Shown one piece after another: positions 11,831-29,937 of a stretch of DNA of 64,000 bases. The stretch lies in NCBI RefSeq assembly GCF_001047375.1, contig NZ_LFVU01000028.1:186001-250000 (forward strand), in the 5' to 3' direction. The translations under genes were made by a program, and so were the position numbers. A model generated the notes under the pieces. It had not been told where the DNA came from. It saw nothing but the letters and a program-made list of their open reading frames with translations, and ran no database searches. How positions within the stretch are numbered: position 1 is the first letter of the stretch; each line of letters starts with the position of its first letter. The DNA is from Clostridium cylindrosporum DSM 605 (GTDB taxonomy: Bacteria > Bacillota > Clostridia > Clostridiales > Caloramatoraceae).

Positions 11831-12904
11831 TTATATTATATAATCTTCTGGAATAAAAACCTTAAAATCTTTAGGTTTTATGAATACTTCATCTCCAATG
11901 TTTAAATTAAGCTCCTTAAATTTTTCTCTTGATACCTCAGCTTCTAAGTATTCACCTATATCACTTCTTTTAAGTTCTATATATACTATACTACCGCCAC
12001 TTCTTATAAAGAACACCTCTGCCTTTATACTTCCTTCTCCGCTACTTTCCCTTGTGATTTCAATGTCATGTGGTCTTACATAACTTACAGCATCTGAGTC
12101 CTTAGCGTCCTTAAACTCTGGAGCGTCATATTCCACTTCCCCAATGTTAAGCTTTCCATTCTTTACTCTACCATGGAATAGATTAACATTCCCTAAGAAG
12201 TCGTATACAAAAGGATTGCTAGGGTTTTCATATACTTCTTTAGGAGTACCTACTTGTTCTATTTTTCCTTTATTAAGTATTACTATTCTATCAGCAACAT
12301 CCATAGCCTCTTCCTGATCATGTGTTACAAATACACTTGTTATAGGATAGTTATCATGTAAACGTCTAAGCCATCTTCTTAGTTCTTTTCTAACCTTTGC
12401 ATCAAGTGCTCCAAATGGCTCATCAAGAAGAAGAACTCTAGGCTCTACCGCAAGTGCTCTAGCAAGTGCCACTCTTTGTCTTTGTCCACCTGACAATTGA
12501 GCTGGGTATCTGTTTTTAAACTCTTTCATCTTTATAAGCTCTAAAAGCTCATCTACTTTATTATTTATCTCTTCCTTACTTGGTCTTAACTTTTTTGGTC
12601 TAATACTTAATCCAAAGGCTACATTATCTCCAACAGTCATATGCTTAAAAAGTGCATAATGCTGAAAAACAAAACCAACTTCTCTTTCTTGAACTTTTTT
12701 TGAAGTATTATCTTCTCCATTAAAAAATATACTTCCTTCATCAGAATTTTCAAGTCCTGCTATTATTCTTAAAAGTGTTGTTTTTCCTGAACCTGATGGT
12801 CCAAGAAGGGCTACAAGCTCTCCGGTTTTAACATCTAGATTTATATTATCTAGTGCATTAAAATTTCCGAAGTTTTTAGATATATCAACAACGTTTATAC
12901 TCAT
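11831..12904 (-). CDS. cysA: Sulfate/thiosulfate ABC transporter ATPase
   Basis: About 357 residues. ATPase domain with GPSGSGKTT (Walker A), [16 protein letters not shown] (signature) and [12 protein letters not shown] (Walker B), then a C-terminal TOBE-like regulatory domain ([25 protein letters not shown]). It powers the importer formed with the CysT/CysW permeases and Sbp. Start at ATG 12904 after AGAGGTG; a GTG at 12913 overlaps that site. Last gene of the sbp-cysT-cysW-cysA operon. Confidence 0.92.
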
Positions 12905-12931
12905 TTCAATCACCTCTACAGACTATTTTAT

Positions 12932-13837
12932 CTATTCTACTTCCTCATTAATTGACTCTTTTTTAATCTTCCATTCAATAACACTTTTAGCTATTAAGTT
13001 TATTAACGCTATAATTGTTAGTAATGATGCAACTGCGAATGCAGCTGAAAATTGATATTCATTATATAAAATTTCAATGTGTAAAGGTAGTGTAGTAGTA
13101 AGTCCTCTAATATGACCTGAAACTACAGATACCGCCCCAAACTCTCCAGCTGCTCTTGCAGCGGTTAATATTACACCATACAAAAGAGCCCATTTTATAT
13201 TTGGAAGAGTTATTTTAAAAAATGTTTTTAGTCCGCTTGCTCCAAGTGTCAGAGCTGCTTCTTCTTCACTACTTCCCTTTGACTGCATAATAGGTATAAG
13301 TTCTCTTGCAACAAATGGGAAAGTTACAAATACAGTAGCAATAATTATTCCTGGAGTATTAAATATTATTTGCATGTCATATTTAGTTAATATTTCACCG
13401 AATAATCCATGGGTGTCACTAAATAGCAAGACAAATACAAACCCTGCAATAACAGGTGATATTGCAAATGGCATATCAATAATTGTAATAAGTATATTTT
13501 TACCTTTAAATTCAAACTTTGAAATTAACCATGCAGCAACTATACCAAAAACTGTATTTAAAGGAACTGCTATTAAAATAGCTTTTAAGGTAAGCTTTAT
13601 AGCATCTAGTGCTATAGGATCTGTTATTGAAGCTATATATACACTATATCCTTTTTCAAGCCCCTTAACAAAAACAGCTACAAGAGGAAGTATAAGCACA
13701 GCAAAAACATAAATAAGTGCTATAGCAGTTAAAGTTATCTTAGCAATACTAATAGAAGATAAGTACTCCTTTACTAACTTTAAAATAGGTTTTTTATTGT
13801 AGTTTTTTTCATTTCTGATCTCTATCTTTGTACTCAT
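12932..13837 (-). CDS. cysW: Sulfate ABC transporter permease CysW
   Basis: About 301 residues with six membrane segments and the BPD inner-membrane signature EEEAALTLGASGLKTFFKITLPNIKWALLYG, which docks on the ATPase. CysW pairs with CysT as the membrane channel. GGAGG is better spaced from the ATG at 13837 than from the ATG at 13843. It follows cysT with a gap of about ten bases. Confidence 0.92.
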   Translation of the reverse strand: MSTKIEIRNEKNYNKKPILKLVKEYLSSISIAKITLTAIALIYVFAVLILPLVAVFVKGLEKGYSVYIASITDPIALDAIKLTLKAILIAVPLNTVFGIVAAWLISKFEFKGKNILITIIDMPFAISPVIAGFVFVLLFSDTHGLFGEILTKYDMQIIFNTPGIIIATVFVTFPFVARELIPIMQSKGSSEEEAALTLGASGLKTFFKITLPNIKWALLYGVILTAARAAGEFGAVSVVSGHIRGLTTTLPLHIEILYNEYQFSAAFAVASLLTIIALINLIAKSVIEWKIKKESINEEVE

Positions 13838-13848
13838 TTTCATCCCTC

Positions 13849-14709
13849 CTACCTAGCTTTGTGATAAGATGAAGTATACCACTGAAGTAAATTGATTATA
13901 AGCATTGCTACAAATGATATTACAAGCATTGCTCCAGCAATTACAGTTGCACCTTCATAATCGTATTGTTCCATTTTAGTCATTATAATAAGTGGTGCTA
14001 TTTCTGTTTTCATAGGCATATTTCCTGAAATAAATACAACAGATCCGTACTCTCCAACAGCTCTTGCAAAGGCTAAAGAAAAGCCTGTTAAAAGAGCTGG
14101 AAACACCTCTGGAATTATTACTTTAACAAAAGTTATAAAAGAATTAGACCCAAGACTTCGTGCAGCTTCCTCTACTTCTTTATCTAAATTCTCAATAACA
14201 GGTTGTACAGTTCTTACAACAAAAGGAATACTAATAAAACTTAAAGCAACAACAATACCTAAAAATGTAAAGGACACTTTTATTCCAAATATGCTTAAGT
14301 ATTTTCCTATCCATCCATCTTGAGCATAAAGAGTAGTAAGTGTTATTCCTGCTACTGCTGTAGGAAGCGCAAATGGAAGGTCTATTAGTGAGTCTATAAT
14401 TTTCTTTCCAAAGAAATTATACCTTACAATTACCCATGCTATTAAGAATCCAAAGACTGCATTTAATCCCGCCGCTAAAAAAGCTGCTAAAAAACTAACC
14501 TTAAAGGCAGAAATTACTCTAGGCTCACTTAGAATTTTTAATATATCGCTCATCCCAATATTTAAAGAGTTTATAAATATCATAGATAAAGGTAAAAGTA
14601 CTAATATACTAATATAACTTACTGTAAATCCTAAACTTAATCCAAATCCAGGTATAATGGTATACCCCTTTAATAACTTATTATTTTTTTTCTTAACTAC
14701 CGTGTTCAA
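13849..14709 (-). CDS. cysT: Sulfate ABC transporter permease CysT
   Basis: 286 residues, six membrane segments, EAA loop VEEAARSLGSNSFITFVKVIIPEVFPALLTG and the typical ARAVGEYGSVVFISGN segment of the CysT/ModB group. It starts at a TTG after GGTGGTG. It lies between cysW and sbp1 and is preceded by a strong intercistronic stem-loop. Confidence 0.92.
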   Translation of the reverse strand: MNTVVKKKNNKLLKGYTIIPGFGLSLGFTVSYISILVLLPLSMIFINSLNIGMSDILKILSEPRVISAFKVSFLAAFLAAGLNAVFGFLIAWVIVRYNFFGKKIIDSLIDLPFALPTAVAGITLTTLYAQDGWIGKYLSIFGIKVSFTFLGIVVALSFISIPFVVRTVQPVIENLDKEVEEAARSLGSNSFITFVKVIIPEVFPALLTGFSLAFARAVGEYGSVVFISGNMPMKTEIAPLIIMTKMEQYDYEGATVIAGAMLVISFVAMLIINLLQWYTSSYHKAR

Positions 14710-14760
14710 CCTTAATCACCACCCTATAAAATTTAAACAATTTGAAAACCAAATAAATTT

Positions 14761-14793
14761 AATGCCTTGTAGTACATGAAACTACAAGGCATT
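14761..14793 (-). terminator. Intercistronic stem-loop between sbp1 and cysT
   Basis: Perfect 13-bp stem, AATGCCTTGTAGT pairing with ACTACAAGGCATT, but without a strong T-run. It probably protects the sbp mRNA or partly terminates, so that more binding protein than permease is made. A closely similar stem follows the sbp paralogue at 18610. Confidence 0.65.
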
Positions 14794-14797
14794 TATA

Positions 14798-15838
14798 CTA
14801 CTTATTCGTGTATATTTGGTCAAATACCCCATTATCATTAAAATGCTTCTTTTGAGCATTATTCCATCCACCAAAAACTTTATTTATTGTAAACAAACTA
14901 ATGTTACCAAATTGTTTTTCATATTTCTTTGCTATTTTTTCATTTACAGGTCTATAGAAATTTTTTGCTGCTATTTCCTGACCTTCATCACTATATAAAT
15001 ACTTTAAATATTCAGTAGCGATTTTCTTAGTTCCCTTTTTCTCTGCAACTTTATCAACAACTGCAACTGGCGGTTCAGTTAATATACTTATACTTGGATT
15101 TACTATATCAAACTTATCTCCCATCTCTTTTTGAACAAGATAAGCTTCATTTTCCCAAGCTATAAGAACATCACCAACACCTCTTTCAATAAATGTAGTT
15201 GTTGATCCTCTTGCCCCTGAATCAAGAACAGGAACGTTTTTATATAACTTTTTCACAAATTCCTTAGCTTTATTTTCATCATTGTTATTCTTTTTTAGAG
15301 CATATCCCCATGCTGCTAAGTAATTCCATCTAGCTCCACCTGATGTCTTAGGGTTTGGGGTTACAACTTCTACGCCTGGTCTAACAAGGTCATCCCAATC
15401 CTTTATACCCTTTGGATTTCCATTTCTAACCAAAAATACAATAGTAGAAGTATATGGAGAAGAGTTATGTGGAAGACTCTTTTGCCATTCCTCATTAATC
15501 AAATGTTTCTTTTTATTAATAGAATCTATATCGTATGCAAGTGCTAGTGTTACAACGTCTGCTTTAAGTCCATCTGCTACACCTCTTGCTTGCTTTCCTG
15601 AACCTCCATGTGACTGGTTCACCTCTACCTCTTCACCTGTTTTATCCTTCCAGTGTTTTGCAAAGGCTACATTGTAATCTGTATAAAATTCCCTTGTAGG
15701 ATCATAGGATACATTTAATAATGTTTTTTTCTTTGAAGTCTCACCATCTTTAGAGGAACAGCCTGTAAATAAACCTATTGTAACTATTAAACTTAATATG
15801 ATGATTCCAAATTTCATTTTGCTTTTTCGCCTTTTCAT
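14798..15838 (-). CDS. sbp: Sulfate/thiosulfate-binding lipoprotein (sbp1)
   Basis: 346 residues with a lipoprotein signal peptide ([19 protein letters not shown]...LFTGC lipobox). The mature part carries the two sulfate-binding-protein signatures, [12 protein letters not shown] and [16 protein letters not shown]. It captures the oxyanion outside the membrane and delivers it to CysTW-CysA. First gene of the operon, starting after GGAGG. About 70-75% identical by eye to the second copy at 18648-19706. Confidence 0.93.
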
Positions 15839-18647: not shown

Positions 18648-19706
18648 TTATTTCTTTGTATAAATTTGATCAAATATACCATTATCATCGAAATGCTTCT
18701 TTTGAGCATTATTCCATCCACCAAAAACTTTATCTATTGTAAATAGATTAACAGGCTTAAATTGTGATTCATATTTTTTAGCTATAGCTTCATTTGTAGG
18801 TCTATAATAATGCTTAGCAGCAATTTCTTGACCTTCATCGCTATATAAATATTTTAGATATTCAGTTGAAGCTTCCTTAGTTCCTTTTTTCTCTGCAACT
18901 TTATTAACAACTGCAACTGGTGGCTCTGCTAGTATACTAACACTTGGAGTTACTATATCAAACTTCCCCTTACCCATTTCTTTCTCAACAAGATAAGCTT
19001 CATTTTCCCAAGCTATAAGAACATCACCTACTCCTCTTTCAACAAATGTAGTAGTAGAACCTCTTGCTCCTGAATCAAGAACAGGAACATTACCATAAAG
19101 TTTTTGTACAAATTCCTTAGCTTTATTTTCGTCATTATTATTCTTTCCTAGTGCATATCCCCATGCTGCTAAGTAGTTCCATCTAGCCCCACCTGAGGTT
19201 TTAGGGTTTGGTGTTATAACTTGTACACCTGGTTTTACCAAATCATCCCAATCTTTTATTCCCTTTGGATTTCCCTTTTTAACTAAAAATACAATAGTAG
19301 AAGTATACGGAGATGAGTTATTTGGAAGACTCTTTTGCCAATCCTTATTAATTAAAGGCTTTTTCTTATTAATTGAATCTATATCGTATGCAAGTGCTAA
19401 TGTTACAACATCTGCTTCAAGACCATCTAGTACAGCTCTTGCTTGCTTTCCTGAACCTCCATGTGATTGATTCACCTCTATATCTTTACCTGTCTTATCT
19501 TTCCAATGCTTTACAAATGCTTTATTATAATCTGCATATAATTCTCTTGTAGGATCATATGACACATTTAGTAATACCTGTTTCTTAGGAGTTTCACTTA
19601 CCTTTTCACTTTTATCTTTAGGTGCACATCCTGTAAATACCCCCAATGTAAGTGATAAACTTAATAAAATAACTCCAATTTTTACTTTTCCTTTTCCCTT
19701 TATCAT
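18648..19706 (-). CDS. sbp: Sulfate/thiosulfate-binding lipoprotein (sbp2), paralogue
   Basis: 352 residues with a lipoprotein signal peptide (lipobox VFTGC) and both family signatures ([28 protein letters not shown]). It has no permease or ATPase genes of its own, so it presumably feeds the CysTWA importer, perhaps with another affinity or substrate such as thiosulfate. AAAGGGG precedes the ATG. It follows the yezD pair and its stem-loop and no other promoter is obvious, so it is probably read from the promoter at 20372-20400. Confidence 0.92.
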
Positions 19707-20548: not shown

Positions 20549-21766
20549 TTATACTAGAACCTCTTCCTTTATTTCACTAAATATAGGGAGAAGTTCATCT
20601 TCAATCCTATAAATATCATGAACAAGTGTTACAGGTGCTGCATATGCATTATAAAGTTCCTCATATGTGTAACCGTTTTTTCTAAGAATTGCTGCATTTT
20701 TCTTAGCAAGATCTAAATGCCACTCTGGGTTTGGTGAATTATGCCCCTCAAGGGCTGACCCTGGATTAGGAACCCATCCAGGAGCTAGTGCTATTACTCC
20801 CTTTGATGCAAGGTATTCTATTCCAGCTAATGTATCAGACTTAGGTTCAAGTCCACCTACTAGATTAGATCTAACCTTTCCTCTTCCAAATACCTTAACT
20901 GCATATTCTAAGGCCTTAATCCAGTGGTCACGCCCACCACAAAGTTCTTCCTTACCTGGGCAGTAAGCCCTAAAGAAATGCTCATTCCAAACTTCTATAT
21001 TTATAGCAAGAGTACTAAATCCTGCTTCCTTATATTTTTCAATGACGCTAAGGTCTGTAGGAGCCCCTATGCAAGCTGTCCCATTAAAATTCTCAAGACC
21101 TGTATACTCCTTAATACTTTCAGCAACATCAAGATAATAGTCTACTTCTCTACGCTCTGGAATAAATCCACCACTAATAGTTACATGCCTTGATCCTTCT
21201 CTATAAGCCTGTGCTACAGTTTCACCTATTTGCCTTGGATACTTCCAACTTATGCATTGATTCTCTCCATAGGTATCCTTAGTAGCATTTATGTTGCAAA
21301 ATAGGCAATCCTTCCCCTTATCCCTTAGTGCACATTCATTACTATATGCAACAAAAACAACACCATGACCATTATATATAGCAACGGTTCTCATATCTGT
21401 TCCATCTGATGTTTTCTTTGAATAATAGTTAGGTCTTTTAGCAAATTCTAATGGAAAAAGCTCTTCTCCATTATTAAATAAAATAAACTCTCCATTAATA
21501 TAGTCTATAGAATATTTTGATTTCTTATTTGCCCTAAATTGAACATCAAGTCCTAGTGGAGTATAAAATGCTACTGGAAGATCATATGCCTTATGGGAAT
21601 CGGTATTATAATCAAACAAAACATGAACCTGCTCTAAATACTCTCCACCTAAATCTAGATTTTTAAATATATCTGGATTCTTAAATGATATACCCTCAGA
21701 TCCTAAATCACACTTTAGCTCTAAATCCTTATATAATTTAGCCTTTAACTCTTCTTTATAACTCAA
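20549..21766 (-). CDS. Radical SAM protein with unusual CX8CX2C motif, last gene of nitrogenase-like operon
   Basis: About 405 residues. The cluster motif is CALRDKGKDCLFC, spacing CX8CX2C, in place of the usual CX3CX2C; it still ends in the C-x-aromatic-C pattern. VTISGGFIPERRE looks like the GGE-type SAM-binding strand, and a TIM-barrel-like alternation follows (ACIGAPTDLSVIEKYKEAGFSTLAINIEVW). There is no NifB-like cluster motif or NifX domain. TTG at 21766 is preferred because GGAGGGG lies six bases before it; the ATG at 21781 overlaps that site. It lies 39 bases after the flavin-binding gene. It may mature the nitrogenase-like complex or process its substrate; specific function unknown. 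Confidence 0.8.
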   Translation of the reverse strand: MSYKEELKAKLYKDLELKCDLGSEGISFKNPDIFKNLDLGGEYLEQVHVLFDYNTDSHKAYDLPVAFYTPLGLDVQFRANKKSKYSIDYINGEFILFNNGEELFPLEFAKRPNYYSKKTSDGTDMRTVAIYNGHGVVFVAYSNECALRDKGKDCLFCNINATKDTYGENQCISWKYPRQIGETVAQAYREGSRHVTISGGFIPERREVDYYLDVAESIKEYTGLENFNGTACIGAPTDLSVIEKYKEAGFSTLAINIEVWNEHFFRAYCPGKEELCGGRDHWIKALEYAVKVFGRGKVRSNLVGGLEPKSDTLAGIEYLASKGVIALAPGWVPNPGSALEGHNSPNPEWHLDLAKKNAAILRKNGYTYEELYNAYAAPVTLVHDIYRIEDELLPIFSEIKEEVLV

Positions 21767-21805
21767 ACCTAACCCCTCCATTATTTTTTATATACTAATA
21801 GGAAC

Positions 21806-22258
21806 TTAAAGATTAATAACTTTTAGTCTTTCATTACTTTCCTTTCTGGAAAAATCAAGTAGTTTTATTATTTTTGGTGTTACTTTAAAGAATGTGTAAC
21901 TTTCTTTTCCTAAAGAATCTATCTTACTTTTTAGATGAGGACTTCTCTTAACTAAAAGCTCATATGCTGTTTCTATTTCCTGAATTTCTTCTATTTTATT
22001 TGCTATACCTTTTATAGTTATATTGAAGAAATTTATTAGCTCTTGATTTTCGTGTTGGGAAAACACACTAACATTAGAGTTCTCTTCAATTTCCTTAACC
22101 TTCGTACTTGTACTTAATGTAGCAAATATTACATCTAATCCACTTGCAACGAATCCTCCTAAACTTCTTAATGATGGAGAGTTATTACCTATTGTTGCAA
22201 GCACAATTGTTTTACCTTTATTTATATATTCCTCAACGAAATTTTTATCTAAAGACAT
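21806..22258 (-). CDS. Pyridoxamine 5'-phosphate oxidase-like FMN-binding split-barrel protein
   Basis: 150 residues. The opening FVEEYINKGKTIVLATIGNNSPSLRSLGG and the FATLSTSTKVKEIEENSNVSV segment follow the PNPOx-like split beta-barrel pattern that binds FMN or another cofactor. Its start ATG shares one base with the metK stop codon, so it is tightly coupled within the nitrogenase-like operon. It could be a flavin redox partner or bind a SAM-derived or heme-like ligand. Family assignment is good; role is inference. Confidence 0.75.
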   Translation of the reverse strand: MSLDKNFVEEYINKGKTIVLATIGNNSPSLRSLGGFVASGLDVIFATLSTSTKVKEIEENSNVSVFSQHENQELINFFNITIKGIANKIEEIQEIETAYELLVKRSPHLKSKIDSLGKESYTFFKVTPKIIKLLDFSRKESNERLKVINL

Positions 22259-23451
22259 TAAATCACCCCATTTACTTTTAGATATTTTCTAATATTATTA
22301 ACCTTGTTAAGCTCCTCCCATGGAAGATTAATATCACTTCTTCCAAAGTGACCATAAGCCGCTGTTTGTCTATAAATTGGTCTTAAAAGATCTAATTCAT
22401 TTATTATTGCATCAGGAGTTAAATCAAACTCATTTTCAACAATTTCAACTATTTCTTCATCACTTATTTTTCCTGTTCCAAATGTATCAACTGTTATAGA
22501 TACAGGCTTTGCAACACCAATTGCATAGGCAATTTCTATCTCTAACTTATCTGCTATACCTGCAGCAACTAGATTCTTTGCGATCCATCTTGCTGCATAG
22601 GCCCCTGACCTATCCACCTTAGTCGGATCTTTTCCAGAAAATGCTCCTCCTCCATGTCTTCCATATCCACCATAGGTATCAACTATTACTTTTCTTCCCG
22701 TTAACCCCGAATCTCCATGTGGTCCACCAATTACAAATCTTCCTGTTGGATTTATAAAATACTTTGTTTTACTATCTAAAAGATTTTCATCAATAACATT
22801 TTTAATAACATGATTAATTATATCTTCCTTAAGATTTTCATTTGTTATATCTTCTCTATGCTGAGCTGATACAACAATAGTATCTATTCTTACTGGCCTA
22901 TCCCCTTCATATTCAACAGTAACCTGTGTTTTCCCATCTGGTCTTAAATATGGAATAGTCCCATCTTTTCTAACCTCAGAAAGTCTTCTTGATAGTTTAT
23001 GTGCTAAGGAAATAGGAAGAGGAATATACTCTGGCGTTTCATTAGTTGCAAATCCAAACATCATTCCTTGATCACCAGCACCTGTACTTAATATCTCTTC
23101 ATCTTCACCTTCTCTAATTTCTAAAGAAGAATCTACACCTCCAGCAATGTCAGGTGATTGTTCATCTATTGATGTTAAAACAGCACATGTTTCAGCATCA
23201 AAACCAAATTTAGCCCTTGTATAACCTATTTCTGAAATAGTTTTTCTAACTATTTTTGGAATATCTACATATGTTTTTGTTGATATTTCTCCAACAACTA
23301 TAACTTGTCCAGTTGTAACTACGGTTTCACAAGCAACCCTTGCTTTCTTATCTCCTTTAATAATTTCATCAAGTATCGCATCTGAAACTTGATCACATAT
23401 TTTATCTGGATGCCCCTCAGTAACGGATTCTGATGTAAATAATCTTCCCAT
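22258..23451 (-). CDS. metK: S-adenosylmethionine synthetase
   Basis: About 397 residues with all family signatures: [28 protein letters not shown] and [16 protein letters not shown]. It makes SAM from methionine and ATP. The ATG at 23451 is preceded by GGGGGAAG; a longer frame to 23466 is unlikely. Its place between the K-like gene and the flavin-binding gene is odd for a housekeeping enzyme. It implies that the operon consumes SAM, either in the radical SAM step or because the substrate derives from SAM. Whether the genome holds a second metK cannot be seen here. Confidence 0.95.
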
Positions 23452-23488
23452 ATATCTTCCCCCCAATATTTATTTATAAATAAACATA

Positions 23489-24838
23489 TTAAAATTGACT
23501 TACTAACTTTCTAATTCCCTCTTCAGCCTTTAATCTTACTTTATTTTCTGTTACATAAACTTTATTTATTAAATCCTCTAAAAGACTAATTCCTCCATTA
23601 AATCCTGTATAGCTTTTACTTAAAAATATTTCTTCTAATGATGGCGTTGATACTATAACTAGCGGAGAAAATAATTCCTCTGATACATTTTTCTCTAGAG
23701 AACTTCCAAATATAATTTCAGTATTAGATCCTCCTAGTATGTCTTGTATCTGTCCTAGGTTATCTGAAAAATAAATATTTTCTCTTATGTCAATTGATAA
23801 ATCAGCTAAATACTCTAATAATCTTTCTTTTAAACTAGTATCTATAATATCGCTAACAATTAGCCTTTCAGGTATTATTCCAACTTCTTTTGTAAGGAAC
23901 TTTGTTAGCCCAACAACAGTACTAAAGTTACCTACTACAGAAAACCTTTTCCTATCACTATATTTTTTATAAATATTAATAGCTGAAAATGTATAGTAGC
24001 TTGTTCTTTTAATCTCATAATCTGTATATTCTTTAACTTTCTGAGTATCTAAGCTTAATTCAGAAGCTACCTTTAGAATAAACTCTTTAGTATCAACTTC
24101 ACCTACAGGAAGATAACCAAAATCTATAAATGGGACATTGTATCTTTCCTCTAAATGTTTTGCAATAGAGTGTCCCCAAGGAGACAAAACAATATTTAAA
24201 GCAGCCTTTGATGCATTTTCCCACTCATCTAAGCCTCCATGCAATCCTAAAAATGTATTAACCTTAAGTCCTATAGCCTCTAGTATGGCTTTTATGCTTT
24301 CTAAGCTACCTCTCCAATACAAATCTGAATTTGGAACTATTCCAAATATATTAACTAAATTTTTATTCTTCTCTACTATTTCATTTGTATTATTAAAATT
24401 ATTTAAAAGCTCAATTCCTGCTATTTCATATCCACTTTGACTATTACCTTTAAACCCTGGAGCATTTATATGAATAACATTATTCCCCTGATCTCTTGAC
24501 TCCTTTGCCATATAAAGGACATCGTCGCCTACTAACTCAGGAGTACATCCTGTTACTACAACATATAGCTTTCCATCAACTACTTGTAAGGTATTTTTTA
24601 TCTGCTCTCTTAACCTTGATGTTCCTCCAAACACAACATGTTTTTCTGTAATGTTGGATGATGGAATTTCAAGTGCATGTATTTTATCCCCTCCCTGAAA
24701 CTCCCTTCCTGAAAGATAGCTTTGAATGCTACATCCCTTTGTTGAATGAACAATTGGGATAACCCCCTCAATTGTGGATAAGGTTTCTATAACACCTTGA
24801 AAAAAGCATCCATTACGCGGTGACTCTACATATGTCAT
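23489..24838 (-). CDS. Nitrogenase component 1-like protein, K/beta-type subunit
   Basis: 449 residues of the oxidoreductase/nitrogenase component 1 family. It keeps three P-cluster-type cysteines: Cys11 (SPRNGCFFQG), Cys36 (HSTKGCSIQS) and Cys98 (VTGCTPELVGDD), aligned by motif with NifK Cys70, Cys95 and Cys153. The first two are 25 residues apart, as in NifK. It lacks the long N-terminal extension of NifK. It has no other cysteine that I can see. Its ATG follows the D-like stop immediately, so the two subunits are co-translated. It probably forms a heterotetramer with the D-like protein. Substrate unknown. Confidence 0.88.
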   Translation of the reverse strand: MTYVESPRNGCFFQGVIETLSTIEGVIPIVHSTKGCSIQSYLSGREFQGGDKIHALEIPSSNITEKHVVFGGTSRLREQIKNTLQVVDGKLYVVVTGCTPELVGDDVLYMAKESRDQGNNVIHINAPGFKGNSQSGYEIAGIELLNNFNNTNEIVEKNKNLVNIFGIVPNSDLYWRGSLESIKAILEAIGLKVNTFLGLHGGLDEWENASKAALNIVLSPWGHSIAKHLEERYNVPFIDFGYLPVGEVDTKEFILKVASELSLDTQKVKEYTDYEIKRTSYYTFSAINIYKKYSDRKRFSVVGNFSTVVGLTKFLTKEVGIIPERLIVSDIIDTSLKERLLEYLADLSIDIRENIYFSDNLGQIQDILGGSNTEIIFGSSLEKNVSEELFSPLVIVSTPSLEEIFLSKSYTGFNGGISLLEDLINKVYVTENKVRLKAEEGIRKLVSQF

Positions 24839-26236
24839 TTATTTCACCTCCTGCTTTACATACCAGTTTGGATTTTTCTTTAACCATCCATTTTTATATA
24901 TAAATTCTTCCTGTTTATATTTGATGTTATAGCTTAGTTGTCTCTTTATAGTTGATATAAGTCTTTCTAAAGCCCTATATCCATACTTACCAACTAAATC
25001 TAGCGAAATACTAGGAATTAATGTATAACTTTCAATTTTACTTTTATTTGAATCAGATATATAAATATCAGGACTTAGTTTTTGTAGTATATTAATCTCT
25101 TCAAAAACTTGTCCGTTTCCTACATGAATTTTAATTTCATTATTAAAACTTTTTATGTTTTCTAAATACTTAGTATCATCTTGATTAATATCCTTTACTG
25201 TTAGCCCTACAATTTCCCCTCCTAAGTTTTTAATAATGGTTAGAATTTCAATTGAAGTTGACTGACTTGTATTTACATAAACCTTAAAACCTTTTAATAT
25301 CTTCCTACTCTCAAGATGCTTATACTTATTAAGTAGCGTTAGATTATCAAGATCTATTATTCTATTTGCATTTTTTAATAATTCTTTAATATAATTCTCT
25401 ATTCCACTAACGCCAATTGGCTTCGAAATTCTAACAAATGGAACATTAAATTCTTCTTCTAAAACCCTTCCTACATATTCACCTTCACTTTCATTTAATG
25501 CAATACTAAATAAAGCATTAGCTGATGCCTTTAAGGAGTTAGCATTTGAAAACCTTGGTATTAAATTCACCTCTACTCCTAAGGATTTAGTTAGTGATAT
25601 AATCTCCTCAACATCCCTAAGGTCTTCAGATATAGAAATCAAATTTATATATCTTTCTTTTTCACCTATCTCACTATTATTAATAAGATACTTAGCTATT
25701 CCATGAAAGGCTAAATCATATCCATAGCTTGCTATTTTTGATTTAAATCCATCTGTATATATAGGTATAATTTTAGCCTCTACCTCTTCACTTAACTCCT
25801 TAATAACTCCTTCAATATCATCATTATTTATAGCTACAACTGGTGTAGTTAATATAAATATTAACTCTGGTGTATACTTTTTATATGCTTTCCTTATTGT
25901 TTCTTTTAACTTTCTATCTCCACCTAAGATAGAATCCTTTTCTAAAATATTAGATGAAAACCATACATTTTCTCTATTTCTAGAAAATTTCGATATACCT
26001 GATGCAAGACATCCCGATGGTCCATGGATTATGGAAATCGAATTTCCTATTGTCGATAGAAATTCTAATGCATATATGATTTCATCCTCCTCACCCTGTG
26101 AAAATGTTCTAAGCCTTTGCTTATGATTTTCTTCTTTTATTTCATTTAATAAAGTATCAATATCACCAAAATAAGAATTAATTGTATTTAATCTTTTCTC
26201 TCTTATTTTAGGGTACTTATTTCTAAGTAAGCTCAT
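24839..26236 (-). CDS. Nitrogenase component 1-like protein, D/alpha-type subunit
   Basis: 465 residues of the nitrogenase component 1 family. It contains IIHGPSGCLASG (Cys76, equivalent to NifD Cys88), LGGDRKLKETI (the NifD FGGDKKL motif) and NNDDIEGV (the GDDIEAV motif). The cysteines matching NifD Cys62 and Cys154 are replaced (RTFSQG and TTPVV), and no cysteine remains for a FeMo-co ligand such as Cys275; Cys76 is the only cysteine. It therefore cannot bind a nitrogenase-type P-cluster or FeMo-co in the known way. It starts 14 bases after the nifH-like gene, after GGGGG. Confidence 0.87.
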   Translation of the reverse strand: MSLLRNKYPKIREKRLNTINSYFGDIDTLLNEIKEENHKQRLRTFSQGEEDEIIYALEFLSTIGNSISIIHGPSGCLASGISKFSRNRENVWFSSNILEKDSILGGDRKLKETIRKAYKKYTPELIFILTTPVVAINNDDIEGVIKELSEEVEAKIIPIYTDGFKSKIASYGYDLAFHGIAKYLINNSEIGEKERYINLISISEDLRDVEEIISLTKSLGVEVNLIPRFSNANSLKASANALFSIALNESEGEYVGRVLEEEFNVPFVRISKPIGVSGIENYIKELLKNANRIIDLDNLTLLNKYKHLESRKILKGFKVYVNTSQSTSIEILTIIKNLGGEIVGLTVKDINQDDTKYLENIKSFNNEIKIHVGNGQVFEEINILQKLSPDIYISDSNKSKIESYTLIPSISLDLVGKYGYRALERLISTIKRQLSYNIKYKQEEFIYKNGWLKKNPNWYVKQEVK

Positions 26237-26250
26237 ATTATATCCCCCTA

Positions 26251-27123
26251 CTATATAAATGCTCCCTCTTTAACAACTCCTGTTTCGTTATCATATATTC
26301 TATCTCCCCAATCCTTAGCCCAATTTCTAAGGTCTGTTACATTTAATGGATTAGGTACTGCAAGATCATCACTTTCAGCTATATATTTTGCTAGATTTCT
26401 GTATATATCAGCATGTGGTGATCCTGGATTTGCCTCTATTACTGTCTTACCTAAAAGTTCACTTTGAGATACAACCAAAGATCTAGGTATATATCCAACT
26501 GTTTTAGTAGAAGTTTTTTCAGCAAAATCATCAACAAGTGCCTTTGAATATCCAGCTGATAATCCATTTGCTATAATTCCACCAAGTTTTGCACCTCCAG
26601 AGGGAGCATACTTATTAATAGCTTTAAATAAATTATTTGCTGCATATATTGCCATAAAATCCGAAGAGCTAACAACAAAGGCTCTATCTGTTATTCCATC
26701 ACGAATTGGTGCTGCAAACCCTCCACATACAACATCTCCCAAAACATCATAAAGTACATAATCAGCTTCAAACTCTTCAAAAACATTAAGATCTTGGAGT
26801 AAATTTACCGCTGCATTTATTCCTCTTCCTGCACATCCTACTCCCGGAACTGGACCTCCAGCTTCTATGCATAGCACTCCACCAAATCCTACTGTTGATA
26901 TATCTTGAAGATTTACATCTTCACCATCCCTTATAGTTTCAATTACCGTTGGAAGATAATTTCCCCCTCTTAATGTATTAGTAGAATCACTTTTAGGATC
27001 ACACCCTATTTGAATAACTCTATGACCAGCTTCCGCAAGCGCTGCACTTATGTTAGAAGTAGTAGTGGACTTACCTATACCCCCTTTACCATAAATAGCA
27101 ATATGTTTAACTCTTTTTCCCAT
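26251..27123 (-). CDS. Nitrogenase iron protein-like ATPase (NifH family)
   Basis: 290 residues. The P-loop [10 protein letters not shown] (residues 11-20) and the two cluster-ligand cysteines Cys97 ([12 protein letters not shown], with Arg100) and Cys133 ([16 protein letters not shown]) are intact, so it should form a homodimer with one bridging [4Fe-4S] cluster and pass electrons with ATP hydrolysis to the D/K-like complex. It is very close to true NifH in core motifs but stands in an operon without nif assembly genes. It starts after AAGGGGG and is controlled by a promoter, an operator and a leader stem-loop (27140-27312). Similar NifH types serve nitrogenase, methylthio-alkane reductase and other nitrogenase-like enzymes. 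Confidence 0.93.
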
Positions 27124-28746: not shown

Positions 28747-29937
28747 TTATTCTGTTGCGTAGTTATCAAAGTAACCTTGGATTAGGATTATAGGTGTTCC
28801 CTTATCTCCACTACCACTTATAAGGTCACAAAGACTTCCAAGAAGGTCTGTAATTTGTCTTGGAGTTGTTCCAAGTGCTTCATTACCTGCAACCTTTTTA
28901 TTTTCTTTTTCTTTAATTTTCTTTATCATTTCATCAGCAAGTGATGCTGAGTCAACATCCTTAAGATCATTATCAGCAATATACTTAAGCTTGATTTCGT
29001 TTGGAGTTCCAACTAATCCATCAGTAAATCCTGGTGATACTATTGGATCTGCAAGTTCCCAAATTTTACCTACTGGATCCTTAAATGCTCCATCTCCATA
29101 GATCATAACTTCTATATTCTTTCCTGTCTTTTCCTTAAGAGCTGCTTGAACCTCTCTAACGAATACATCACCTTCTCTTGGGAAAAGCTTAACTGTTTCT
29201 TCAGTAGCCTTATTTGAACCAAGTAGACCATATTCTGAATATCCACTTCCGTTAACTGGTGATGATGCTATATCATCTAGTCCATAAACAACCTTAGCTC
29301 CAGCTGCCTTTAATATTCTCTTAGTTCTATGTCTTTCATGAATATTAGCAACAAGTATTTGATCTGTATACTTTAGAGCTTCTCTTGGATCATTTGCAAG
29401 GTAAATTTCAACTTCTCCACCTACTTCTTCAACTATATCTCTATACATTTGAACATAGTCAATTCCAGTAAAAGGATGCTCAACCTTTGCACCAAATAAC
29501 TCTCTGTACTTAGCTTCTGTTAATACATCTTTGTAAGGGTTAACTCCCTTTTCATCCATTAGGTCAATATCCATTAAGTGATTTCCAACTTCATCTGATG
29601 GATAGTTAAGGAATAGATGCATCTTTCTTCCACTAAGTGCTATTGACTTAAGAATTAGTGAAAATCTATTTCTACTTAATATAGGGAATAAAACTGCTAT
29701 TTCTCCGTCGAATTTTGACTTGATATCTTCTGCAATGTTTTGAATTGAAATATAGTTACCTTGTGCTCTCGCCACTAGTGATTCAGTAACTCCAATTACA
29801 TCCTTGTCATTAACTTTTATTCCTTCAACTTCTATAGCATTTACTACTGAACTTACTACTATTTCAGCTAGGTTATCTCCTTCTTTGATAATAGGAGCTC
29901 TAAGTCCTCTTGCTGTTGTTCCAACTGCTCTTGCCAT
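28747..29937 (-). CDS. Coenzyme F420:L-glutamate ligase (CofE)-like protein
   Basis: 396 residues. The N-terminal half has CofE hallmarks: VGTTARGLRAPIIKEGDNLAEIVV, VIGVTESLVARAQGN and later YGDGAFKDPVGKIWE and SPGFTDGLVGTPNEIKLKY. True CofE adds glutamates to coenzyme F420-0. Clostridia of this kind are not known to make F420 and no other F420 gene is in the window, so this longer orphan homologue probably ligates or amidates something else. It is a single gene with GGGGGAG before the ATG and terminators on both flanks. Confidence 0.8.
   Translation of the reverse strand: MARAVGTTARGLRAPIIKEGDNLAEIVVSSVVNAIEVEGIKVNDKDVIGVTESLVARAQGNYISIQNIAEDIKSKFDGEIAVLFPILSRNRFSLILKSIALSGRKMHLFLNYPSDEVGNHLMDIDLMDEKGVNPYKDVLTEAKYRELFGAKVEHPFTGIDYVQMYRDIVEEVGGEVEIYLANDPREALKYTDQILVANIHERHRTKRILKAAGAKVVYGLDDIASSPVNGSGYSEYGLLGSNKATEETVKLFPREGDVFVREVQAALKEKTGKNIEVMIYGDGAFKDPVGKIWELADPIVSPGFTDGLVGTPNEIKLKYIADNDLKDVDSASLADEMIKKIKEKENKKVAGNEALGTTPRQITDLLGSLCDLISGSGDKGTPIILIQGYFDNYATE

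Follow-up and report, generated by a model that had tools for sequence, protein, structure and literature searches.

The isethionate reductase IsrBHDK of Rhodobacter capsulatus (Morimoto et al. 2024, mSphere; PMC11423573) is a nitrogenase-like system for which isrB, isrH, isrDK and the SsuABC transporter are all needed when the organism grows anaerobically with isethionate as sulfur source, and an isethionate lyase rescues the isrDK mutant. In the catalytic component, Cys74 of IsrD is the sole remaining one of three cysteines, the Cys154 site being Pro or Ser, and the cysteines of IsrK are Cys12, Cys37 and Cys99; Cys275 and His442 are lost. The IsrDK complex co-purifies with an iron-sulfur-like absorbance at 410 nm, which constitutes the only metal data known (PMC11423573). 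The window analysed in this work is a stretch of 64,000 nucleotides of Clostridium cylindrosporum DSM 605 (contig NZ_LFVU01000028.1, positions 186,001 to 250,000; GCF_001047375.1), and it carries a locus which, judged by its sequence, is a new member of the IsrHDK branch of the group IV nitrogenase-like enzymes. Its genes encode the reductase H and the catalytic subunits D and K, related to NifH, NifD and NifK respectively.

Among solved structures, the nearest to H, D and K are those of MarHDK (9FMG, 9D9U; PMC12552129), which is responsible for reductive C-S cleavage in methylthio-alkane reductase (MAR). MAR has a P-cluster with six cysteines, of which MarK Cys32, Cys56 and Cys121 and MarD Cys91 are ligands in the solved complex, an [Fe8S9C] cluster with Cys270 and His429, and the NifB-like MarB, and none of these three is present in the C. 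cylindrosporum system. The second system of relevance is the dark-operative protochlorophyllide oxidoreductase (DPOR, BchLNB), whose NB cluster has as ligands BchB Asp36 and three cysteines of BchN (PMC12518044); the comparison of IsrDK with this cluster has already been drawn (PMC11423573).

We consider it highly probable that the window encodes an enzyme of the IsrHDK branch with one [4Fe-4S] cluster per DK half which cleaves the C-S bond of a sulfonate. IsrH, with its own [4Fe-4S] cluster and ATP, would pass electrons of low potential to the tetramer IsrD2K2. In this tetramer each DK half would hold a single [4Fe-4S] cluster where D and K meet, with K Cys11, Cys36 and Cys98 and D Cys76 as ligands, and would be devoid of P-cluster, iron-molybdenum cofactor (FeMo-co) or [Fe8S9C]. 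The variant radical S-adenosylmethionine (SAM) enzyme IsrB and DK would together cleave an organosulfonate taken up by the cell, either isethionate or a closely related compound, at its C-S bond, and the sulfite so released would enter sulfur assimilation. The grounds computed here are the cysteine pattern and its conservation, the homology to MarDK and DPOR, the absence of NifB and the operon content, and from these we infer the cluster type, the substrate in this host and the way in which IsrB and DK share the work.

The D-K pair, which lies where the earlier note had placed it, contains exactly four cysteines, one in D and three in K. MarD and MarK (9d9u, 9fmg) are the best solved relatives of the two subunits, D matching MarD with E=3e-34 as a single sequence and 1.5e-66 with the D profile, and K matching MarK with E=1.8e-68 (single sequence). 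An earlier note on this DNA had placed K Cys11, Cys36 and Cys98 in the NifK P-cluster positions and the lone D Cys76 at the equivalent of NifD Cys88, and the alignment agrees in both subunits, with MarK Cys32/56/121 and MarD Cys91 respectively. It had also stated that D has no FeMo-co-ligand cysteine, and Asn248 is indeed found at the site of MarD Cys270; by the same alignment no His of D occupies the site of MarD His429. As the four cysteines correspond one to one to P-cluster sites of the solved MarDK structure, they would be gathered round one interface site. The P-cluster of MAR and nitrogenase takes six cysteines, and as only four are present here a P-cluster is not expected.

An assignment to MAR itself, with P-cluster and [Fe8S9C] and feeding methionine salvage, would explain the S-adenosylmethionine synthetase gene (metK) found in the operon, and all three subunits have their best solved relatives in MarD, MarK and MarH. 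However, two of the three MarD P-cluster cysteines and both cofactor ligands are missing throughout the clade, IsrD forms a separate clade, and NifB/MarB was found neither in the own genome nor in 9 further Isr genomes. This assignment is in our view very improbable, and MAR membership was rejected on the four cysteines in place of six, on Asn248 with no equivalent of His429, and on the lack of a NifB-type MarB.

A five-sequence D profile was run against 11.3 million contigs, which gave 80 loci, hosted among others by Clostridia, Lachnospiraceae, Paenibacillus, Spirochaetes, Chlorobiaceae, Geobacter and Anaeromyxobacter. The census included 80 D and 78 K homologues, with 19 paralogous clostridial systems as outgroup. 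D Cys76 is kept in 79/80 homologues, and K Cys11, Cys36 and Cys98 in 77/77, 76/77 and 76/77 of the K sequences with letters at these columns; the columns equivalent to NifD Cys62 and Cys154, which the earlier note had described as filled by RTFSQG (D43-48) and TTPVV (D130-134), hold a cysteine in 0/80 each. All 19 outgroup paralogues have Cys at each D and K column concerned. The pattern is far from chance, and the check which the note had proposed, that the four cysteines be kept and the others lost in homologues, is borne out by the census. The IsrD sequences form a single clade (support 98/98) against the 19 Mar-like paralogues and BchN, within which T44, N137 and N138 are clade-specific and invariant.

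The D column of the Mar cofactor ligand is Cys in 8/80 homologues, all of one Chlorobiaceae/Geobacter branch (L060, L061, L062 and L066-L070); these IsrD carry the cysteine without the other Mar ligands, and their close sisters have Ser at this position. A larger cluster, 8Fe or other, could in principle be built on the four cysteines if completed by non-cysteine ligands, and ligation of this type is known in the superfamily from BchB Asp36. The Cys154 site, however, shows no conserved acidic or Ser residue (Pro in 75 and Ser in 5 homologues) and no member has a cysteine at the Cys62 site, so that we hold a cluster of this kind to be quite improbable.

Profile-profile alignment with the Chlorobiaceae proteins of DPOR and of chlorophyllide a oxidoreductase (COR, BchXYZ) places K Cys11/36/98 on BchN Cys21/46/103 (Chlorobiaceae numbering) and D Cys76 both on BchB Asp36 and on BchZ Cys37. 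The likeness to the NB cluster which the earlier note had seen is found at the same four positions, in the same 3+1 arrangement, with the differences that the fourth ligand is BchB Asp36 in DPOR and Cys76 of D here, and that the three cysteines are on the NifD-type subunit in DPOR and on the NifK-type subunit here. K is in overall similarity closer to BchB than to BchN, so that the three-Cys side appears swapped relative to DPOR. COR has one [4Fe-4S] cluster in its catalytic component, liganded reportedly by three cysteines of BchY and one of BchZ, and BchZ has a cysteine at the position of D Cys76. Because of this cysteine at the fourth position COR appears, from the alignments, to be an even closer analogue than DPOR, although COR acts on tetrapyrroles, belongs to the group V branch and has the NifD-type subunit as its three-Cys subunit. 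Membership in DPOR or COR was rejected, since D and K score 69.8 and 108.3 bits against the DPOR_BchB cut-off of 490 (NCBIfam) and the others are also far below.

NifB, searched for by its radical-SAM domain, was not found in the own genome (96% complete). Ten out of 28 distinct Isr genomes, including this one, are without NifB, showing only NifX-like fragments or nothing, and the ten comprise several isolates (Pseudobutyrivibrio, Lachnospiraceae NC2004) and some metagenome bins. As NifB is absent, [Fe8S9C] or FeMo-co would not be available by the known route, and this argues against FeMo-co or an L-cluster independently of the cysteines. One [4Fe-4S] cluster per DK half is the best-supported reading and probably the correct one; the earlier note had predicted such a cluster in place of P-cluster and FeMo-co, and the ligand mapping, the lost cofactor ligands and the absence of NifB all support it. 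This interpretation is not new, being printed for IsrDK (PMC11423573), and the earlier note re-derived the published inference from sequence alone. A role as NifEN-like scaffold was rejected because the genome has neither NifB nor a further DK pair; CfbD was likewise rejected, being homodimeric and lacking a K partner.

Some points weigh against an Isr enzyme with a single cluster. Membership was set by the published description, the clade and the gene content, rather than by the R. capsulatus sequences themselves, and SsuABC genes do not adjoin the window locus. AlphaFold2 was run on a fusion of D and K as one chain, the D stop being read in frame as Gly, and while both halves are good (TM 0.88 for K against MarK and 0.79 for D against MarD), the placement of D relative to K is not native-like, with the whole chain at 27 A rmsd from the NifEN fusion 9i0g, and the cysteine loops have a pLDDT <50. 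On the convergence of the cysteines this model neither supports nor refutes the proposal. Finally, in Pectinatus haikarae the operon stays intact without three of the four ligands.

This Pectinatus locus (L129; NZ_WIQM01000016.1, 9962-12681) is the only deviating full-length locus, and is a natural exception newly reported here. D Cys76 is replaced by Thr, K Cys36 by Leu and K Cys98 by Val, with K Cys11 kept; the D and K genes are otherwise intact, and the operon, itself intact, includes SsuABC twice and a pair of radical-SAM genes besides metK. No other Isr pair was seen in its genome or in the 189 genomes searched of its order, and this DK pair is either decaying or a cluster-less variant. 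As the loss affects both subunits together, it supports the view that the four cysteines form one unit.

The operon of the window (20549-27123) is composed of H, D, K, MetK, a PNPOx-like gene and the radical-SAM gene, with the K reading frame beginning in frame immediately past the D stop codon; coordinates are given in Table 1. The best match of H in the protein structure database is MarH (9fmg_D, E=5e-116), and its cluster cysteines are Cys97 and Cys133.

Table 1. Features of the Isr locus and its surroundings, in positions of the window.
Feature	Position	Strand	Evidence or remark
Sulfate ABC transporter genes, CysA-, CysW-, CysT- and Sbp-like, shared sulfur island	11831..15838	-	named by sequence
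Sulfate/thiosulfate-binding protein, adjoins operon	18648..19706	-	NF008022/TIGR00971
IsrB-like variant radical-SAM enzyme, not NifB	20549..21781	-	NF045502, 462 bits
PNPOx-family small flavoprotein-like gene	21806..22258	-	PF01243; near 23/81 homologous loci
MetK, second (dedicated) S-adenosylmethionine synthetase of the genome	22258..23466	-	TIGR01034, 608 bits
IsrK-like (NifK family) catalytic subunit, 449 aa, three cysteines	23489..24838	-	PF00148
K Cys98 codon, proposed cluster ligand	24545..24547	-	position of MarK Cys121, BchN Cys103
K Cys36 codon, proposed cluster ligand	24731..24733	-	position of MarK Cys56, BchN Cys46
K Cys11 codon, proposed cluster ligand	24806..24808	-	position of MarK Cys32, BchN Cys21
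IsrD-like (NifD family) catalytic subunit, 465 aa, single cysteine	24839..26236	-	PF00148
D Asn248, in place of FeMo-co/L-cluster ligand MarD Cys270	25493..25495	-	alignment
D130-134 TTPVV, Pro132 at NifD Cys154/MarD Cys158 site	25835..25849	-	P 75, S 5 (n=80)
D Cys76 codon, proposed fourth cluster ligand	26009..26011	-	position of MarD Cys91, BchB Asp36, BchZ Cys37
D43-48 RTFSQG, in place of NifD Cys62 region	26093..26110	-	R43 and T44 invariant, 80/80
IsrH-like (NifH family) ATP-dependent reductase, 290 aa	26251..27123	-	PF00142, E=4e-94

The features shared with the R. capsulatus Isr system are the single D cysteine at the Cys88 site (Cys76), Pro or Ser at the Cys154 site (Pro132), the three K cysteines, the lack of FeMo-co ligands equivalent to Cys275 and His442, a radical-SAM partner in the gene cluster which is not NifB, a group IV clade of IsrD near MarD and a context of sulfur assimilation. 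The differences are that the window operon also includes MetK and the PNPOx-like gene, that the radical-SAM gene is downstream here and directly upstream of H there, and that the adjacent transporter genes are for sulfate and not for sulfonates, a sulfonate substrate being only inferred here. In the Clostridium tyrobutyricum locus (L137) a run of Sbp- to CysT-like genes also adjoins the Isr genes. Elsewhere in the own genome three SsuA-type proteins are over the cut-off, and sulfite/nitrite-reductase domains are present; a path from sulfonate over sulfite to sulfide is plausible in this host, and the likely role of the system, as read from the genes, is to free sulfite from an organosulfonate under anaerobic conditions and so feed sulfur assimilation.

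At 81 loci, genes were counted within the uninterrupted run on one strand to which D belongs, which gave H in 73, radical-SAM genes in 59, SsuB-type ATPase in 53, SsuC-type permease in 49, MetK in 42, SsuA-type protein in 35 and a methylthioadenosine/S-adenosylhomocysteine (MTA/SAH)-nucleosidase-type gene in 22. MetK is near 45/81 loci and the nucleosidase-type gene at 24/81, 21 of these 24 with MetK. The housekeeping MetK of the own genome is found separately (C1:146452), and each checked genome with an Isr-linked MetK holds another copy. SAM riboswitches lie upstream of isrH in Clostridium luticellarii (L059, 5056-5162) and in C. tyrobutyricum (L137, 1223-1330), and T-boxes are found in L058 and L137, the one at L137:12903-13135 preceding the sulfate-binding protein beside isr; the Rfam search of the window gave no match, neither SAM riboswitch nor T-box. 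Two Chlorobiaceae metagenome-assembled genomes (L084, L085; 1-14000) show six or more IsrB-type radical-SAM paralogues around a single HDK, which would be unexpected for a cofactor maturase. The IsrB family has a CX8CX2C motif (C150, C159, C162) and a conserved C274-P-G-K, and in the IsrB model (pLDDT 94) the nearest predicted folds are those of LipA, PylB, BioB and ThiH, with weak likeness to NifB.

The second MetK, the nucleosidase-type genes and the multi-copy variant radical-SAM genes are new here; the main text of the Isr paper (PMC11423573) mentions neither SAM synthetase nor nucleosidase nor Clostridia. The dedicated MetK and nucleosidase-type genes suggest heavy SAM use, and together with the multi-copy radical-SAM genes they suggest that IsrB may spend SAM during turnover and may not be a one-time maturase. 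In another reading the former FeMo-co cavity would be occupied by a second and so far undescribed cofactor, additional to the interface [4Fe-4S], which the radical-SAM protein would build or insert. R. capsulatus cannot dispense with IsrB (PMC11423573), radical-SAM maturases serve other nitrogenase-type systems, and the invariant T44, N137 and N138 of D could be related to such a cofactor. On the other hand no conserved cysteine remains as anchor, neither the motif nor the fold of IsrB is like that of NifB, and several IsrB paralogues per HDK, provided with their own SAM supply, are more in keeping with a turnover enzyme than with a maturase, which makes a second cofactor unlikely.

With one [4Fe-4S] cluster retained as sole metal centre of DK, it is possible, if far from assured, that IsrB itself breaks the C-S bond by radical chemistry with stoichiometric use of SAM, and that IsrHDK serves as ATP-gated source of low-potential reductant or reduces an intermediate made by IsrB. 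The second MetK in the operon, the extra copies in MetK-linked genomes, the association of the nucleosidase-type gene with MetK and the two riboswitches upstream of isrH are in favour, but about half of the loci are without MetK within 10 kb (some contigs end early), most are without the nucleosidase gene, and MetK could merely respond to sulfur starvation. As a rather doubtful extension, a two-enzyme machine could be envisaged in which the CX8CX2C enzyme IsrB consumes one SAM for each sulfonate, the reduction is provided or finished by DK, MetK renews SAM, the nucleosidase-type partner clears 5'-deoxyadenosine and the IsrB paralogues allow further sulfonates to be used.

As a nitrogenase-like enzyme, Isr may cut sulfonate C-S bonds without a complex cofactor. 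If one ordinary [4Fe-4S] cluster suffices, Isr would represent the simple end of a fold whose complex end fixes nitrogen, and the Isr genomes without NifB provide a clean test of the single-cluster idea. The gene neighbourhoods make the unsolved role of IsrB directly testable, and the system has a bearing on sulfur acquisition by anaerobes, many of which inhabit the rumen, the gut or sediment.

No clear Isr was found in the plasmid collection, where all matches had <60% identity and the best, to unclassified component 1 proteins and NifE, <=27%, nor, apart from the starting Azoarcus metagenome-assembled genome, in a sample of 398 genomes of the Pseudomonadota, the phylum of the Azoarcus locus. 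At L042-L057 a large and diverse set of nitrogenase-like DK pairs was seen in clostridia, in which the P-cluster triads are complete and the cofactor cysteine of Mar type is present; several of these genomes hold three or more pairs of this kind. In the window, positions 28747-29937 encode a CofE-like protein (F420-0:gamma-glutamyl ligase family), well under the equivalog cut-off and in a firmicute host.

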